Assembly: GCA_009778485.1 (NCBI GenBank)
Contig: WRJQ01000008.1
Location: 1-48,451, forward strand
Length of the DNA: 48,451 nt
Direction of reading: 5' to 3'
Source of the DNA: Oscillospiraceae bacterium
GTDB taxonomy: Bacteria > Bacillota > Clostridia > Oscillospirales > Oscillospiraceae
Positions within the stretch are counted from its first letter, which is position 1, and each line of letters starts with the position of its first letter. Positions 39,910 through 48,451 of the stretch are shown piece by piece. The position numbers were made by a program, and so were the translations under genes. Under the pieces are notes generated by a model that did not search any database, had not been told where the DNA came from, and worked only from the letters and a program-made list of their open reading frames with translations.

Positions 39910-40018
39910 GAGCAAACTCCTCGTTGTTACAGTAAGCGCATTGCACAATATTTGCCAAACTAAATGAGCAAAAACGCTCAATTGATTGAGTGATTCTGCT
40001 CATTCTACTGATTAAACT

Positions 40019-41650
40019 TTATCTTGTCAATAGCCATGCGATGGCGCATTCTTTTATGTTATGGGCAATGCCGATGCACAGGCAGTCGCCGTCTAGGCCC
40101 TGGTGGTATTTCTTGTCGAGAATCTGCGCAAGAGCCTCCTCCTTGAGCGTGTCGACGTCCTCGCCCTGCTTGAACTCGATGACAATGTGCGGCCGCTCGG
40201 GAAACAGCGACTCCATCCTGATGTCGCTTCGCCCGTGGCCCGATTCGATGTTGCTCGTTATCTTGTACAAGTCGTTCAGCGATATGCACATGCCGAGGAA
40301 AAGCATGTGGTACGCGTTCTCCTTCGCGTCATAGTAGCTTGTGCAAGATAATACGATTCCCTTGTACACCTCGATGAAGTTGTCAATATCTCGCGCAAGA
40401 AGGAACTTGAACATCTTCTCCAGCTCCTTGCTCCCTACTCTAACCGATTCCGCTATGATCTTCGTGAACTCAGTCCTGACCTCCCCGTTCGGTATACGCA
40501 CGGTCATGGAAGTCGACGCCGGCTCTTTCTTGATCACCGTGATGTACCCGGAGTTCACCAGCAGACCCCACAAAGTGTCTTCGTTCCTGAGTTCGAGAAA
40601 AGAGCAGGTAAGGTCGGCGTCGATGCTCGCTGTACCTTCGGCAATCAGCTTGTCAAAGCTTTTGCGGAACAGGCTGCCCGCCTGCGAGATCGACTGCCTA
40701 ACGAGGAAATTCGTAGAGGTGTTGATCCAGTAGTTTTCAAGTATCCCTGTTTTGGCGTAGTTAAGTGCAGACCAAGGGTTGTACATCTCTTCCTCGCCGA
40801 ACAGGTAGCCGTCGTACTGCTGCTTCACTGCATCGTCGAGCGCGAGGCCGTAGTCGGACAGGAGCTTCTCAGCTTCGCTTTCGGTTAGCCCGAAGTACTG
40901 AGAGTATGGCATATCTGCGACCGTATACACGGTAATGTTGTTGAGCTGCGAGAAGATGCTCTCCTTCGCAATGCGCTGTATGCCAGTCAGCAGCGCCTGG
41001 TGGAGGCTCCCTTGCCCTTTGAGCGCCGCTCCGTAGAAGCCTGAAAAGAAGACCTTCAGTTCGTCGTGAAACCCGTACTCTACCGAACTCAGGATCGGCG
41101 TGTCGTACTCGTCAATCAGTACGATTGGCCTAATGCCGTAGTATTCGTGCACCGCCTGCATGAGGACGGAGATTGACAACTTGAGATTATCCTCGTCGAT
41201 GCTGCTGTCAAGAAGCATGCCGTATGTTCGGTAGAACATGTAAAAGCTGCGCTTTGTCCTGTCAACGCTGTCGTTAAAAACGAGACGGTACTTCTCATAC
41301 TCAGCGGCCACGACGTCGGCGAGCATAAACAGCAGCGACTCGGCGTTTCTAGCCTTACACTCCTTGAATGTGAAGTAGATCACAGGGCGCGAGTTGATTT
41401 CGGATGCGTACTCTGTGTCCATTATCGCGAGACCTTCGAAAATGCCCCTGCTGTCTGCCGTGATGTCGAAGAACTCCCTGATAGTGGTCATGTTGAGCGT
41501 CTTGCCGAACCTGCGTGGCCTGGTAATCAGGGCTACTTCATCGCCGTACTTTAAAAAGTCCCGGATTATTAGCGACTTGTCCACATAATACCGGCCTGTT
41601 TCGCGGATTTTCCTGAAATCGTCTATGCCAATCGGCAGTAACTGTTTCAT
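40019..41650 (-). CDS. AAA family ATPase with C-terminal PD-(D/E)XK nuclease-like domain (AAA-ATPase_like/DUF1703 type)
   Basis: LPIGIDDFRKIRETGRYYVDKSLIIRDFL, ITRPRRFGKTLNMTTIREFFD, VLIDEYDTPIL, HIVIEFKQGE. Confidence 0.92.
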   Translation of the reverse strand: MKQLLPIGIDDFRKIRETGRYYVDKSLIIRDFLKYGDEVALITRPRRFGKTLNMTTIREFFDITADSRGIFEGLAIMDTEYASEINSRPVIYFTFKECKARNAESLLFMLADVVAAEYEKYRLVFNDSVDRTKRSFYMFYRTYGMLLDSSIDEDNLKLSISVLMQAVHEYYGIRPIVLIDEYDTPILSSVEYGFHDELKVFFSGFYGAALKGQGSLHQALLTGIQRIAKESIFSQLNNITVYTVADMPYSQYFGLTESEAEKLLSDYGLALDDAVKQQYDGYLFGEEEMYNPWSALNYAKTGILENYWINTSTNFLVRQSISQAGSLFRKSFDKLIAEGTASIDADLTCSFLELRNEDTLWGLLVNSGYITVIKKEPASTSMTVRIPNGEVRTEFTKIIAESVRVGSKELEKMFKFLLARDIDNFIEVYKGIVLSCTSYYDAKENAYHMLFLGMCISLNDLYKITSNIESGHGRSDIRMESLFPERPHIVIEFKQGEDVDTLKEEALAQILDKKYHQGLDGDCLCIGIAHNIKECAIAWLLTR

Positions 41651-41743
41651 TCTCGCTCGCATCCTTTCGACCGAATGGGGCACAGGCTCCTAGTCACACA
41701 ATAGCACAAATGTGTTGCCATGACAAGCCCTGGTAACACAAAA

Positions 41744-41782
41744 GGCCGTGCAACTTGGTTTGGTAAACCAAATCGCACAGCC
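41744..41782 (-). repeat. 39-bp hairpin, inverted copy of 39220..39258
   Basis: ggccgtgcaacttggtttggtaaaccaaatcgcacagcc. Confidence 0.8.
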
Positions 41783-41926
41783 TAGAAATAAGTCGAAAAA
41801 AAGCCCACTTACCACATGGTCACATGACTCAGCAATGGGTGAGTTTCTTCTTTGTTAACTTAACTTGCTCAGGCTAATTATGTGAATGTGAAGTTCGGGA
41901 AGCGTACGTTGTGGCAGGCGGTACGC

Positions 41927-42379
41927 TCACTTTTTACGTTTGTTTCCAGAACTCGGAGGCTTTAGGTCATACGAGAACTTCGAGTATGTCCATACGCGGG
42001 TGCTTTCTTCATATCCGTGTTTGCCCAGTATATATGTCTGCGCTCTCTTGTGACTGGTAAGTCCATACAGGATAGTGAGCACCGCCGCAACCGCCAGCGC
42101 GTATGCGATCCAGCTAATCTGGAAATAGCTATAGCACGCCGTAATAACGAAAACTACAGTCAGGCAGAAGTATAATGCTGAGATGCGCTTATACTCTCTG
42201 CCTTTGTCGAAGTCCGCTTTCTCATCCTTGGAAAGCCCCAGATATATGCTGGACAGAAGTGGTCCTTTCCCTCTATACGCATTTACAGCGTAGAGGCATG
42301 AAGCAACTGCCAACGCAAGTGGCACGAAAACTCCAAAAAGCATTAAAGTATCATTCATCGATGCTCCGAGCCAATACAC
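41927..42379 (-). CDS. Small membrane protein, DUF3784-like
   Basis: 150 aa, about three hydrophobic segments, KGPLLSSIYLGLSKDEKADFDKGREYKRISALYFCL. Confidence 0.6.
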   Translation of the reverse strand: MYWLGASMNDTLMLFGVFVPLALAVASCLYAVNAYRGKGPLLSSIYLGLSKDEKADFDKGREYKRISALYFCLTVVFVITACYSYFQISWIAYALAVAAVLTILYGLTSHKRAQTYILGKHGYEESTRVWTYSKFSYDLKPPSSGNKRKK

Positions 42380-42639
42380 GGTCTCACCTCACTTCTCCAG
42401 ATACTTCCCTAAGCTCTTCACCATGCTTAAGTCAGGGTCTGCATTATCAACTCAACTGTTGTATTGCACATAACTTTGCAAGTAGACGGCGAAATCGTAA
42501 CCATACAGATTGCTTAGGAAAAACCCTCCTGAGCAATCTGCAAGGTGTTGCGCAGACCAATGAGCACAACTTCATCTCCCCCGAAAACCTGTCTTAAGCG
42601 AGAGGAAATACTAGTTAGCCTATTTACTCAGCTAACACA

Positions 42640-42873
42640 TTACTCCCAGCACCCAGCAGCAACCAGCGATACCATGACGCTGTCGTAGCCACACTTTGGT
42701 ACACTGCTTTCCGAAGACACCTCTACATAATAGCTGATAAAGGTTTGGTGCGCATTCTGCGCTGGGTCACCTCCGCATGTGTTGGCACAGTTGCCAGCAC
42801 AGGAACACGGAGTCATGGATTCAACCGTTGTCTTTTTGACCATGAAGTTCTTGAAAAGACTCTTTTCCGCCAT
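42640..42873 (-). CDS. Short Cys-rich peptide, candidate RiPP/bacteriocin precursor (paralogue of 45378..45560)
   Basis: MAEKSLFKNFMVKKTTVESMTPCSCAGNCANTCGGDPAQNAHQTFISYYVEVSSESSVPKCGYDSVMVSLVAAGCWE; aaggagg RBS before ATG 42873. Confidence 0.65.
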   Translation of the reverse strand: MAEKSLFKNFMVKKTTVESMTPCSCAGNCANTCGGDPAQNAHQTFISYYVEVSSESSVPKCGYDSVMVSLVAAGCWE

Positions 42874-42971
42874 ATCGTCATCCTCCTTGCTCAATAACGC
42901 TGTTAACACTCACGTTGCAGATTATTATGATTCTTCTGTGCAAGTGGCATAATCTTGCACTTGCAGGTTCA

Positions 42972-43000
42972 ATTATCTATTTCATGATTCTACTTGTCAA
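42972..43000 (-). promoter_or_regulatory. Putative sigma-A promoter of the Cys-rich peptide gene
   Basis: Minus strand TTGACA-17 bp-GATAAT. Confidence 0.65.
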
Positions 43001-43009
43001 TAGTTTTTG

Positions 43010-43042
43010 CGCAAGCGGTCGCTTTTACTACGCAAGCGGTCG
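43010..43042. promoter_or_regulatory. Two 12-bp direct repeats spaced 21 bp, upstream of the -35
   Basis: cgcaagcggtcg at 43010..43021 and 43031..43042. Confidence 0.55.
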
Positions 43043-43050
43043 TTTCGGAG

Positions 43051-43359
43051 CTAATTACTCGCGATAGCAGCACCCTTCGTCAGCCCGGGCGTGTATATCT
43101 GCATCTTCATGTCAGGCGTCTCCCATGGGCCGAGGGTCTCGTCTATGCCTACGATCTTGAACAGGGCCGGCTGGCCGCCCGCCCCTGCGGGCGTTATCTC
43201 GACTGTGTCGCCAATATATGCCCCTAAGGCTAACGGCACGCCTTTCCCGACTATGATCGCCCTGCCGAAGCGGTTCATCACTGAAGCGTCGGAAAACTCA
43301 GAGTACGTGATTGGCACGTAGCTGTCCGCGTAGCGGCCTATGTCGTTGGTCACCACCAT
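43051..43359 (-). CDS. Small ORF, possible truncated FtsX/MacB-type permease extracytoplasmic fragment
   Basis: MVVTNDIGRYADSYVPITYSEFSDASVMNRFGRAIIVGKGVPLALGAYIGDTVEI...; start overlaps the upstream stop as TGATG. Confidence 0.5.
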   Translation of the reverse strand: MVVTNDIGRYADSYVPITYSEFSDASVMNRFGRAIIVGKGVPLALGAYIGDTVEITPAGAGGQPALFKIVGIDETLGPWETPDMKMQIYTPGLTKGAAIASN

Positions 43360-45239
43360 CAGGCGGAGCCCTGGAGCAGCGACAGCGGGGGGCGGCTGCC
43401 CATCCTGCGCAAGGTTGCCAGCGCGAAAGCGATGGTAAAGAGAAGCTGCCCCAGGGACGCGCCTATAACTACAGCCATCGGCGCAGATGCGTCGACGGCG
43501 TACTCCTCCAGCAATAGGAGGGCGTTGTTCCTGGCTACAGTGTGCCGGGTATACAGTATGGAAGCAGTGCCGCCAATCAGCAGGGATACTACCGTCACCG
43601 CGATCAGCGGGTAAGCGAGGGCTCCACCGGCTTTCGCCTTCGGCGTGCCGAGCGCCCTCATGATAGCGTAGTCCTTGCGCCTGCGCCCGATGAAGAGGTA
43701 AGCTGCCAGCACGGTGGCCGCCGCGACGGCGAGGCTGAACAGCAGTATTTTTACCCTTGAAACCCATGCGGACTCCTCGAACCCGCTCTCTATTGCAAGC
43801 CAGCCCCTGTCGTAGAAAACAAGGGAAAGGCCAATGTCCGCCATGGCGGGCGTAGCTGCGTCAAGGAATGCCTGTATGTCCCGCACATCGTCGACCCTGA
43901 AGCTGAACTCGGAGGGCGTGAACTCGTGCGCACCGAGCGCGGCTTCGTCTGCCGGCAGCAGCGACCTTGGGACGAACACCGCGTTTATCGAGTAGCCCCA
44001 GTGCGGGTCCTTGCTCCGCTTGGCAAGGCCGTCCGTGTTGATGTATATGCCAACAATCTCCAGCTCGGCTTCTTTCTGCGGGGGTTCGTACCTGGCAGGA
44101 GTCCCCGCTATCGCGCCCAGGTTCAAGTACTGCTCGAACAGAACGGTCCCGAGCCCGAACGTCACTGTGTCGCCGATACCCAGCCCGTTCTCCGAGGCGA
44201 ACTCGTAGCTCACTACGCATGCCTGCACGTCATTCCGGCTGTCCTCCGGGGTCAGCATCCGCCCCTCCAGCAGTTCCATCCTGCCGTCCGCGAACCTCAT
44301 TATGGACTTCATGTCCTCGGTGTATACCATGTCGAACGTGCGGCTGTCCGCGTCGGTGATCTCTATGAGTTCCCTGAGCGGACTGAACTTCTCCAGCTCG
44401 AGGTAGTTTTCCGGCTCGCCGTCGAGCGGCCAGACCGCGTCGCACCAGGAGTCGGAGTACATGTCGCCTATGTGGTAGAAGTACTCGCCCGGCGCTATTC
44501 GCGGCGCTACGCGCAGCACGAATACGTACTTGTTTCCGACCGCAAGGTTGCTTATATGGTTTGCCCCATAATCTCCTGCAATCGTAGTATACCACCCCGC
44601 ACGGTTGGACTCGCCGTCGTGTCGATATGACCCGCCTAGCGGTCTGCTTAGCGATTTTGTTGTGCCGTTTAGGGCATGGGCGGAGTGCTTGCCGCCCGTC
44701 TCTATGGTTGGTTTGTCTCCATCTTGCGGCACATGGCCCGCCAACATTCTGGCATCGTCCACATAGAATAGTGAGGTGAAGCTGGAATAACCATATGGTT
44801 GGTGCACTCCTTCTGATATGACAGTCGCCTCCACGACGCAGCGCATATGGAATGGGTAGAAGTAGTCGCCGTCGTCCATGCGCCGGTATTTGTCCGATAT
44901 GCCCGCTGTCATGTACCGCACGTCGGTTGAGGAGATATACGGCAGATTCACCGCAGCGTCAATCTGCTCTTGAGTTAGATGCACATACCAGCCTATGGCT
45001 GTGCTGTCAAGAGCAAGGTGCTGTGGTATACCTGCTCTAGCTCCCGGCGGCGCATACGGTGGCTCGTCCTCGACTGACCCTACTCCGTAATACTGAGCTG
45101 CCGCATTGGCGACTTCACGCCGCGTGATGGCATACTCTTCCGCCTGCGACAACAGCGTGAAGGCAATTACGCCGAGCAGGACGATGGAGAGAATCGTCCT
45201 GACGGGAGAGCGGGCCAATGTTTTCATGGTTTGCGCCAT
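43359..45239 (-). CDS. FtsX-like ABC transporter permease
   Basis: N-terminal TM (SPVRTILSIVLLGVIAFTLLSQAEEYA), large extracytoplasmic domain, C-terminal FtsX segment FIGRRRKDYAIMRALGTPKAKAGGALAYPLIAVTVVSLLIG. Confidence 0.8.
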   Translation of the reverse strand: MAQTMKTLARSPVRTILSIVLLGVIAFTLLSQAEEYAITRREVANAAAQYYGVGSVEDEPPYAPPGARAGIPQHLALDSTAIGWYVHLTQEQIDAAVNLPYISSTDVRYMTAGISDKYRRMDDGDYFYPFHMRCVVEATVISEGVHQPYGYSSFTSLFYVDDARMLAGHVPQDGDKPTIETGGKHSAHALNGTTKSLSRPLGGSYRHDGESNRAGWYTTIAGDYGANHISNLAVGNKYVFVLRVAPRIAPGEYFYHIGDMYSDSWCDAVWPLDGEPENYLELEKFSPLRELIEITDADSRTFDMVYTEDMKSIMRFADGRMELLEGRMLTPEDSRNDVQACVVSYEFASENGLGIGDTVTFGLGTVLFEQYLNLGAIAGTPARYEPPQKEAELEIVGIYINTDGLAKRSKDPHWGYSINAVFVPRSLLPADEAALGAHEFTPSEFSFRVDDVRDIQAFLDAATPAMADIGLSLVFYDRGWLAIESGFEESAWVSRVKILLFSLAVAAATVLAAYLFIGRRRKDYAIMRALGTPKAKAGGALAYPLIAVTVVSLLIGGTASILYTRHTVARNNALLLLEEYAVDASAPMAVVIGASLGQLLFTIAFALATLRRMGSRPPLSLLQGSA

Positions 45240-45377
45240 TGCGGTATCCCCCAACGCCCTGATAGCGGCTTGATGCCGCTATCAGGGGTGATGCCATTTA
45301 TCGGCTCTCGAGCAGCCTGAAATTGTCCTGATGGACTACTGCTGAGTGTGGAGTTGCGCTGGAGCAGAGGCGAGGTT

Positions 45378-45560
45378 CTAACCCATTGCCTGAAGTTCAA
45401 GATACACCCAGCCGGTTACATCGCTATTCGGGTAGATATTGCAATTACAGATTCCGCCACATACTGAGAAGTTGCATGCTGCCTCCTGCATGGACTCCAC
45501 CGTCTCTCTGGCCGCGAGGAAGTTCTTGCTGAGTTCTGTTGCCTCATCAAATGTTTGCAT
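45378..45560 (-). CDS. Short Cys-rich peptide, candidate RiPP/bacteriocin precursor
   Basis: MQTFDEATELSKNFLAARETVESMQEAACNFSVCGGICNCNIYPNSDVTGWVYLELQAMG; gaggaggg RBS. Confidence 0.65.
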   Translation of the reverse strand: MQTFDEATELSKNFLAARETVESMQEAACNFSVCGGICNCNIYPNSDVTGWVYLELQAMG

Positions 45561-45655
45561 TTTTCGCCCTCCTCGTATAATAGATTTACGGTGTTTTTGA
45601 CAAGAACGCCGCATGAAAAACTTGTTATCCTGCGATGGATGTGGGAAAATAAGGC

Positions 45656-47232
45656 AGACTGTGTAAAAACACTTTACCATCAGCCCTAAAAGAGGTATAA
45701 TAAAAGCAGGAAAAGGGGCTGTTGGGATGAAACGGTATATGCAAGGCGAAGACAGGAATCAATTAAGTATAGAGCCGTTGAGTTTTGATGACCTGATAAG
45801 CGAAGAAAACCCGGTACGCGCCATTGAATTGATTGTTGAAAGCATGAAAATCAATACCCTTGGCTTCGCATACAGTGAAACAAAAGACACGGGACGTAAG
45901 CCGTATTCGCCGGAGGATATGTTCAAGCTATACGCATATAGCTACTATAACGGGATACGGTCATCGCGGAAGATAGAGCGGGAATGCCATCGGAATATAG
46001 AAGTTATGTGGCTGATTGGCGGTTTGAAGCCGGATCATAAAACGACAGCGAATTTTCGGAAAGACAATAAGAACGCAATCAAGGCGGCGTTTCGGCAGTT
46101 CAGTCTGATATGCGCGGAGCTTGGCTTGATAAGTAAAGAAGTGGTAGCGGTGGACGGGAGCAAGTTCCGGGCTTGTAACGGGCGGATGCGTTATCACAGC
46201 AAAGGGAAGATAGCGGAGAAATTACAGCATTACAGTGAAGCTGCTGAAAAATACATGAACCTTTTGGAGCAGAGCGACCGGAAAGAAAATGAAAATCCAC
46301 CGGGAAGCTTCAGTCGAAAAGAGCTAAAAGAGAAATTAGATAAGATACAAAAACGTGTAACGGAACTGGAAGCGATACAGGAGCAGGTGGAATCGGAAGG
46401 CACAATCTACTTGACCGACCCGGAAGCGCGGTTGATGAGAAGCCACAATGGCGGCGGCGACATCAGCCATAATGTTCAGACGGCAGTGGAGGCAAAGAAT
46501 CATTTTGTAGTAGCGGTTGATGTGACAAGCGAGGCGGTAGATTACGCCCAGCTTTATAACATAGCGAGTCAGGCGAAAGCGGAGTTAGGCGTGGAGAAAC
46601 TCACAGCCATAGCGGATAAAGGATATTATTCAGGCGAACAGTTTGCCCAATGCCATGAAGAAAACATTCATCCTATCGCGCCCCATCCCAACAAGGGAGG
46701 CTCACAGGAGCGCGGTTATACAAAAGGGCATTTCACTTATGAGGCAGAAACCGACGCTTACCGTTGCCCGCACGGGCAAATGTTGACGCAACCCATACAA
46801 AAGAGGGTCAACCGCAAAGGAGACAGATATTACAACCCCACTGCCTGCGCCAACTGTCCGGCAAAGGGGAAATGTTCCCCGTCCGCACCGTACCGAACTA
46901 TTGTCCGAGGTGAGTATGACCGATATTCTGACGAAGTGGACGCTTTCACCAAAGCAAACGCGAAACTGTTCGCCGAACGAAAATCTCTGTGTGAGCACCC
47001 GTTTGGCACGGTGAAAAGAGCGTTAGGGTTCTCATATTTTCTGACGAGAGGAACAGAAAATGTGCGAACGGAATCGCTTCTGCACTTTCTCGCATACAAC
47101 ATGAAACGGCTGGTAAACATCATGGGAACGGCAGGGCTACAGGTTGTTTTGCAGGGATAATCCTCAATAATTGCTCATTTTCCAAAATTCTGTGAATTTA
47201 TATCACTTGATAATTGCCTTTTTACACGGTCT
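45656..47232 (+). mobile_element. IS1182-family insertion sequence
   Basis: Imperfect terminal inverted repeats AGACTGTGTAAAAA (left) and AGACCGTGTAAAAA (right, reverse complement) bracket the transposase. Confidence 0.8.
45727..47160 (+). CDS. IS1182-family transposase
   Basis: YSPEDMFKLYAYSYYNGIRSSRKIERECHRNIEVMWLIGGLKPDHKTTANFRKDN...VAVDGSKFRA; DDE-type C-terminus. Confidence 0.93.
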   Translation: MKRYMQGEDRNQLSIEPLSFDDLISEENPVRAIELIVESMKINTLGFAYSETKDTGRKPYSPEDMFKLYAYSYYNGIRSSRKIERECHRNIEVMWLIGGLKPDHKTTANFRKDNKNAIKAAFRQFSLICAELGLISKEVVAVDGSKFRACNGRMRYHSKGKIAEKLQHYSEAAEKYMNLLEQSDRKENENPPGSFSRKELKEKLDKIQKRVTELEAIQEQVESEGTIYLTDPEARLMRSHNGGGDISHNVQTAVEAKNHFVVAVDVTSEAVDYAQLYNIASQAKAELGVEKLTAIADKGYYSGEQFAQCHEENIHPIAPHPNKGGSQERGYTKGHFTYEAETDAYRCPHGQMLTQPIQKRVNRKGDRYYNPTACANCPAKGKCSPSAPYRTIVRGEYDRYSDEVDAFTKANAKLFAERKSLCEHPFGTVKRALGFSYFLTRGTENVRTESLLHFLAYNMKRLVNIMGTAGLQVVLQG

Positions 47233-47243
47233 CAAGCGTAACA

Positions 47244-47435
47244 GACAGAGGGCGCAGTCTCCCTCCTTGGGGTTTAGCCTCGAACGAAAGAATTGCGCCT
47301 CTGTCCTTACGGTTAGATGCGAATGAGCTGGATAGCGACCCATCGCGGGATGCGCTGCATATCTAACGAGGTTGTGTTGCCGTAAGAATCAGAGGGGAAC
47401 CCTGTCTGTGAACACTGTCATGGGGAGGGTTATCA
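47244..47435 (+). ncRNA. Candidate IS110 bridge-RNA region (structured 5' noncoding end)
   Basis: Stem GACAGAGGGCGCA/TGCGCCTCTGTC, then CTTACGG/CCGTAAG enclosing GTTAGAT/ATCTAAC, directly upstream of an IS110-type transposase. Confidence 0.5.
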
Positions 47436-48451
47436 TTGTTCTACTGCGGGATTGACATCGCCAAGCGAAGCCACGAAGCATCGGTCATAGACGCCGAGGG
47501 GAAACCATTGCTGGACAGCATCCCTATTACGAACACACAGGATGGCTGTGAGAAGCTGTTTTCTCTGTTTGGGCGGCTGAACATCTCAAAGACCGACGTC
47601 ATCATCGGCATGGAGGCCACCGGTCACTATTGGCTGGCGGTCTACGAACATCTTACTGAACGAGGCTACGACGTTCGGGTAATCAATCCCATCCAGTCCG
47701 AAGCGTTCCGCAAGATGTACATACGCCAAACTAAGAATGACAGCAAGGACAGCTTTATCATCGCTCAGGTCATGCGGTTTGGGCAGTATTCCGAAACAAC
47801 CCTGTCGGATGAAAACATCGTAGCCATGCGGCAGTTGACCCGTTTCCGAATGGCGCTTGTGGATAGCTGCGGAGATTGTAAGCGTAGGATCATCGCTCTT
47901 TTGGATCAGGTGTTTCCAGAGTACGAGGGTTTGTTTTCCGACACCTTCGGCGTTACCTCTAAAGAATTGCTTTTGCAGTATCCAACGCCGGAGGATATGC
48001 TCGCTGTTTCAACTCGTAAGCTGACCAGTTTGCTAAACAAGGCCAGTCATGGCCGGTTCGGAGAGAACAAAGCGAAAGAGATTCGCACAGCGGCGGCCGG
48101 TTCATTTGGTGTCGGTTTTGCCAAGAATGCTTTTGCGTTTCAACTACGGCAACTCATTGAGCAACTTCTGTTTCTGGAAAATCAGATTGAAGAACTGGAT
48201 GAACAAATTTCTCAACTTCTCAAACAGACAAACCAAGTCATTACAACCATTCCGGGCATCGGCGGTACGTTGGGCGCTATCATCATCAGCGAGATTGGCG
48301 ACATACACCGTTTCGACGCGCCGGGCAAGCTGGTGGCCTTTGCCGGGTTGGACGTGAAAGTCACGCAGTCCGGCGAGTTTACCGGAACAAAGCAGAAGAT
48401 TTCCAAGCGAGGCTCACCGTATTTGCGGCGGGCGATTTGGCTTGCCCCCCA
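47436..48451 (+). CDS. IS110-family transposase (partial, runs off the window end)
   Basis: Own translation, not in the ORF track: MFYCGIDIAKRSHEASVIDAEGKPLLDSIPITNTQDGCEKLFSLF...GMEATGHYWLAVYEHL...RQTKNDSKDSFIIAQVMRFG...TIPGIGGTLGAIIISEIGDIHRFDAPGKLVAFAGLDV. Confidence 0.92.
   Translation, partial: MFYCGIDIAKRSHEASVIDAEGKPLLDSIPITNTQDGCEKLFSLFGRLNISKTDVIIGMEATGHYWLAVYEHLTERGYDVRVINPIQSEAFRKMYIRQTKNDSKDSFIIAQVMRFGQYSETTLSDENIVAMRQLTRFRMALVDSCGDCKRRIIALLDQVFPEYEGLFSDTFGVTSKELLLQYPTPEDMLAVSTRKLTSLLNKASHGRFGENKAKEIRTAAAGSFGVGFAKNAFAFQLRQLIEQLLFLENQIEELDEQISQLLKQTNQVITTIPGIGGTLGAIIISEIGDIHRFDAPGKLVAFAGLDVKVTQSGEFTGTKQKISKRGSPYLRRAIWLAP

Follow-up and report, generated by a model that had tools for sequence, protein, structure and literature searches.

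Probable divergent CLI_3235-type precursor peptides around an FtsX/MacB-type permease, most likely a relic set in an Oscillospiraceae genome

The stretch of DNA analyzed here (the window) is the whole of a 48,451-bp contig, C8, from an Oscillospiraceae assembly of 1.69 Mb in 82 contigs whose completeness is estimated at 64.5%. Three of its genes lie on the minus strand in the transcription order peptide 2 (45560..45378), FtsX/MacB-type permease (45254..43359), peptide 1 (42873..42640). As the preliminary description had reported, the two peptide ORFs flanking the permease are Cys rich and share the motif KNF-x5-TVESM. Each has a ribosome-binding site (RBS). Peptide 1 (77 aa) is a putative KNF-type, CLI_3235/CcpM-like RiPP precursor with a leader at about residues 1-20, SLFKNFMVKKTTVESM, followed by a Cys-rich core; its RBS, AAGGAGG, is 8 nt ahead of the ATG. 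Peptide 2 (60 aa), a paralogous putative precursor, has the leader TELSKNFLAARETVESM, again followed by a Cys-rich core, and an RBS, GAGGAGG, immediately ahead of its ATG. A consensus scan picked out a promoter-like minus-strand site, TTGACA-17-GATAAT (42972..43000), about 100 bp ahead of peptide 1, and a perfect 13-bp hairpin (45257..45287, minus strand) lies between peptide 2 and the permease.

The surroundings of these genes include mobile elements. An insertion sequence on the plus strand (45656..47232), bounded by terminal repeats at 45656-45669 and 47219-47232 and carrying a DUF772/DDE transposase (45727-47160), starts about 96 bp upstream of the start of peptide 2, and a transposase-like gene (47436-48449) occupies the contig end. 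The next ORF downstream of peptide 1 on the same strand (41927-42379) resembles a membrane protein and has a weak DUF3784 match (24.9 bits against a cut-off of 28.1); it is a possible immunity candidate. Further along, at 40019-41683, is an AAA-ATPase_like/PDDEXK_9 protein, assigned by family match only and with no evident tie to the peptides. An Rfam search of 40000-48451 gave no match.

The two peptides have L-x-KNF-x5-TVESM in common ahead of the Cys-rich segment and align to each other with E = 2e-5 in a single comparison. The preliminary description had seen in them the layout of RiPP precursors and a likeness to the CLI_3235 type. CLI_3235 precursors (TIGR04065) are found together with CcpM (TIGR04068), an enzyme of the radical SAM/SPASM type (PMC10731318, PMC7343975). 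Against TIGR04065, peptide 1 scored 15.4 bits, below the cut-off of 26, and an NCBIfam search with peptide 2 gave no match. The KNF-type precursors of genomes with genuine CcpM are likewise sub-threshold (10.7-21 bits), and because these also fail the cut-off, we conclude that it excludes the KNF subgroup. We built a profile of 24 precursors taken from CcpM loci of relatives, with the window sequences left out. Peptides 1 and 2 ranked first and second among the 493 ORFs of the window (E = 1e-4 and 1.7e-3; next best 0.17), a ranking that is slightly circular since most of the profile precursors had been chosen by a loose leader pattern. When the composition of each peptide was preserved and its order shuffled, 0 of 5000 shuffles per peptide reached the true profile score, the margin for peptide 1 being narrow (13.5 versus 13.3 for the best shuffle). 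A leader-only profile of the canonical KKLGKK type detected neither peptide; the case for a relation is therefore built on the leader and Cys core together, and on the KNF-type relatives described below. Taken as a unit, the leader and Cys-rich core proved homologous to CcpM-linked precursors by profile search, shuffles, alignment, and profile comparison. Peptides 1 and 2 are thus most likely a divergent pair of CLI_3235-type RiPP precursors, with fewer CxC motifs in their cores than is usual for the family. The likeness suggested at the outset is borne out by the sub-threshold TIGR04065 match, the CcpM-linked profile, and the KNF homologues, whereas the suggestion of an undescribed system does not hold: the peptides fall in the known CLI_3235/CcpM family, whose member SacP23 is reported to be antibacterial (PMC10731318).

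Searches that started from the two peptides alone were unproductive. A pattern scan of genome contigs gave 105 pattern matches, none of them confirmed; a two-row peptide profile run on 201 family genomes found only weak matches outside the window (best E 0.008); and a TIGR04065 match on contig C15 of the same assembly was rejected as chance (E 0.3, internal stop). Homologues of the motif adjoining maturation genes, which the preliminary description had proposed to look for, came to light through a search for the maturase. KNF...ExM precursors, KNFATTSETIEEM, KNFASSSKSIEEM, KNFYEERKTVEAM, and KNFQSTRETIESM, lie beside CcpM in three loci (L126, L128, and L130). They make up 4 of 90 distinct precursors and come from 3 of the 61 loci having both a maturase and a detected precursor; the three genomes were chosen by similarity of their maturase and not by the motif, and the profile that found their precursors included the window peptides. 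By comparison, 65 of the 90 distinct precursors have E or Q, then a small residue, then Y or F. Across the 16,316 ORFs in the full set of retrieved loci, KNF-x(4,6)-[TS][VI]E-x-M occurred only in peptides 1 and 2 and in precursors of one CcpM clade, and it was absent from the same number of shuffled ORFs. An alignment of seven KNF-type peptides (the window pair, these four, and the L221 precursor introduced below) left K, N, F, E, and M invariant in the leader, and a profile of this type matched one canonical precursor with 94% probability across 19 leader columns. Outside the host genome, one of 301 family genomes gave a strong KNF-type match (G952, with coordinates identical to those of Sporobacter termitidis), and a search of 285 genomes from the order gave just one other match at 1e-4, inside the G253 CcpM locus, which has canonical precursors. 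As judged from these sequences, the KNF leader type is rare within the CLI_3235/CcpM family.

The preliminary description had also noted the absence of a modifying enzyme, and we likewise found none within the window, CcpM included; instead, a deleted CcpM is present on contig C23 of the same assembly. This gene fragment matches TIGR04068 with 254.7 and 136.2 bits and, compared with the CcpM of S. termitidis, is without approximately residues 1-90 and 288-349. The TIGR04066 gene that follows it in this 64.5%-complete assembly matches over residues 1-59 only and continues directly as the 35 C-terminal residues of an FtsX permease of the S. termitidis type (74% identity); immediately upstream is a piece of a permease of the window type. 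These CcpM, TIGR04066, and permease fragments suggest that C23 is what deletions have left of a complete cluster with FtsX permeases. A scan of named genomes with the CcpM alignment placed nearest to the C23 enzyme those of the Oscillospiraceae MAG Th196P4bin59 (L126), a second Oscillospiraceae MAG (L127), and S. termitidis DSM 10068 (L130), the best segments being 60-65% identical, with a Lachnospiraceae genome (L128) next closest. In a FastTree analysis, C23 CcpM grouped with L126, L127, and L130 with a support of 97, and with 99 once L128 was added (five rows). The S. termitidis maturase scores 552.5 bits, above the TIGR04068 cut-off, and its TIGR04066 protein is above its own cut-off. The leader type of the window peptides thus matches that of precursors among the relatives of C23 CcpM, and it is through leader type, as read from sequence, and not through gene neighborhood that the peptides are tied to a C23-type CcpM. 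Another radical SAM gene of the assembly, on contig C41 (L009 9079-10437), was rejected as a CcpM; it reached only 110.6 and 36 bits against TIGR04068 and appears from its sequence to encode a SCIFF-like maturase.

The permease between the peptides had been described as an FtsX-type permease that might be linked to them. The gene is there (43359..45254; 631 aa; Pfam MacB_PCD and FtsX), but it encodes one half of a two-half permease. This N-half is apparently complete, with near full-length matches to the N-half genes of G093 and G931 (640 aa and 613 aa), whereas tblastn with intact relatives found of the second half only a fragment of about 70 residues in another frame (43153..43359, minus strand), the C-half residues on both sides of it being absent. 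No ATPase gene was found beside the permease in the window. The proposed link to the peptides gained from an independent source, since a 5.4-kb contig (L221) of the same MAG as L126 has the same arrangement: an ACP-like gene, a permease C-half of 420 aa, a KNF precursor, KNFKQNPQTIEAM, a hairpin whose arms measure 18 nt, and a permease N-half sharing 43% identity with that of the window. The order precursor, hairpin, permease N-half is therefore common to L221 and the window, where it is formed by peptide 2 and the 13-bp hairpin, and because of this shared order the permease is most likely part of the peptide cluster, in the KNF clade at any rate. The S. termitidis precursor also has a hairpin 3' of it, of 10 bp. 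Over the family as a whole such an association is uncommon, a permease-like match being present in only 5 of 78 CcpM loci. A further 18 family genomes had a permease match, and as no precursor adjoined the loci examined, the exception being G146, at the CcpM locus itself, permease homologues were rejected as a guide to the peptides. The assembly itself holds an intact two-half FtsX permease of the same family on contig C2 (1066 aa; L042 8331-11531), with no precursor adjoining, and a third short remnant, a permease N-terminus, on contig C15 (L043 6108-6317). Four other CcpM clusters (L055, L070, L074, and L154) have apparent sugar-type ABC permease pairs, MalF/MalG-like by eye.

One relative suggests how such a system may work. 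Antibacterial activity was obtained in Bacillus subtilis from the eight-gene SacP23 cluster of Paenibacillus polymyxa #23, which includes a precursor, CcpM, TIGR04066, TIGR04069, a subtilisin-like protease, and an ABC exporter (PMC10731318). By analogy with the SacP23 family, CcpM, together with the TIGR04066 protein and the ACP-like TIGR04069 protein, would recognize the leader, which would be KNF-x5-[TS][VI]E-x-M in the KNF clade and KKLGKK followed by [TS]hEAY (h = V, I, or L) in most others. The enzyme would then place cross-links on the core cysteines, a subtilisin-like protease would cut off the leader, and an ABC exporter would secrete the product. The split FtsX/MacB permease and its ATPase may expel the product or protect the producer, a role in export or self-protection suggested by the position of the gene.

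We conclude, with a probability of about 0.84, that the peptides are divergent CLI_3235-type radical-SAM RiPP precursors and, in their own genome, most likely a relic set. The maturase is deleted, only a fragment of the permease C-half remains, with no ATPase beside it, and an insertion sequence lies upstream, so the simplest reading of the sequence is that the system is being lost here. The alternative is that it still works: an intact CcpM set, located in the third of the genome that the assembly lacks, would mature the expressed precursors in trans, and the N-half would pair with another permease subunit. Both peptide ORFs and their RBSs are intact, a promoter-like site precedes peptide 1, the permease N-half is complete, and at 64.5% completeness an intact maturase could have escaped assembly; yet the sole CcpM found is a deletion fragment, the C-half is down to some 70 residues with no ATPase after it, and the insertion sequence sits just upstream of peptide 2, and we consider a working system unlikely. 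We regard as equally unlikely a more elaborate proposal, that KNF...ExM precursors interleaved with permease halves form a subtype in which a hairpin after each precursor would limit read-through and the permease would recognize the product, the precursors here still working with an unassembled maturase or one from another locus.

Considerably less probable is that these are unmodified Cys-rich peptides, such as disulfide-bonded bacteriocins or metal-binding peptides, that merely resemble CcpM substrates. A window with no modifying enzyme and family scores below threshold would suit such peptides, but their leader type is that of precursors adjoining CcpM in three genomes and of no other among the 90 precursors. 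That the motif match is due to chance, at least one of the two short ORFs not being a gene, can practically be dismissed, for although the two-sequence E-value is only 2e-5, each ORF has an RBS, the pair took the top two ranks of 493 with no shuffle in 5000 equaling either, the motif never arose in 16,316 shuffled ORFs, and the KNF-type homologues make coincidence very unlikely.

Read as relic CLI_3235-type precursors, the peptides can be set beside known systems. They share with the CLI_3235/CcpM family the short precursor, the basic leader ending in [TS][VI]E-x-[YM], and the Cys-rich core, and their relatives adjoin CcpM, TIGR04066, an ACP-like gene, an S8-type protease, and an ABC exporter. 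They differ in a leader of the KNF...ExM and not the KKLGKK...EAY type, in scores under the curated cut-off, and in a cluster that here is dispersed and deleted and has an added FtsX/MacB permease, a term absent from the SacP23 paper (PMC10731318). The CcpM cluster of S. termitidis DSM 10068 (L130/L220) has the same leader type, a maturase among those nearest to the C23 remnant, and a hairpin after the precursor, and it ends with two FtsX permeases and an ATPase; unlike the window genes it is complete, and its permeases share only about 22-26% identity with the window permease, a distant relationship. In MAG Th196P4bin59, KNF precursors adjoin CcpM at one locus (L126) and separate two window-type permease halves at another (L221), but there the halves are intact, and L126 and L221 are separate contigs. 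SCIFF/ranthipeptide and sactipeptide systems also use radical SAM/SPASM maturases on Cys-rich precursors, and the host genome has a SCIFF-like maturase of its own (C41), but their precursor leaders and maturase family are different.

Within the known CLI_3235/CcpM family, the peptides probably represent a divergent, rare leader type with a shared permease arrangement, present in this genome as what seem to be stranded remains. The peptides point to a subgroup of CLI_3235-type precursors that the curated model overlooks, with a leader type of its own tied to one maturase clade and a permease arrangement that recurs in a second genome. The pairing of leader and maturase is open to direct test in a cultured strain, S. 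termitidis, and the window probably shows a RiPP pathway in the course of being lost.
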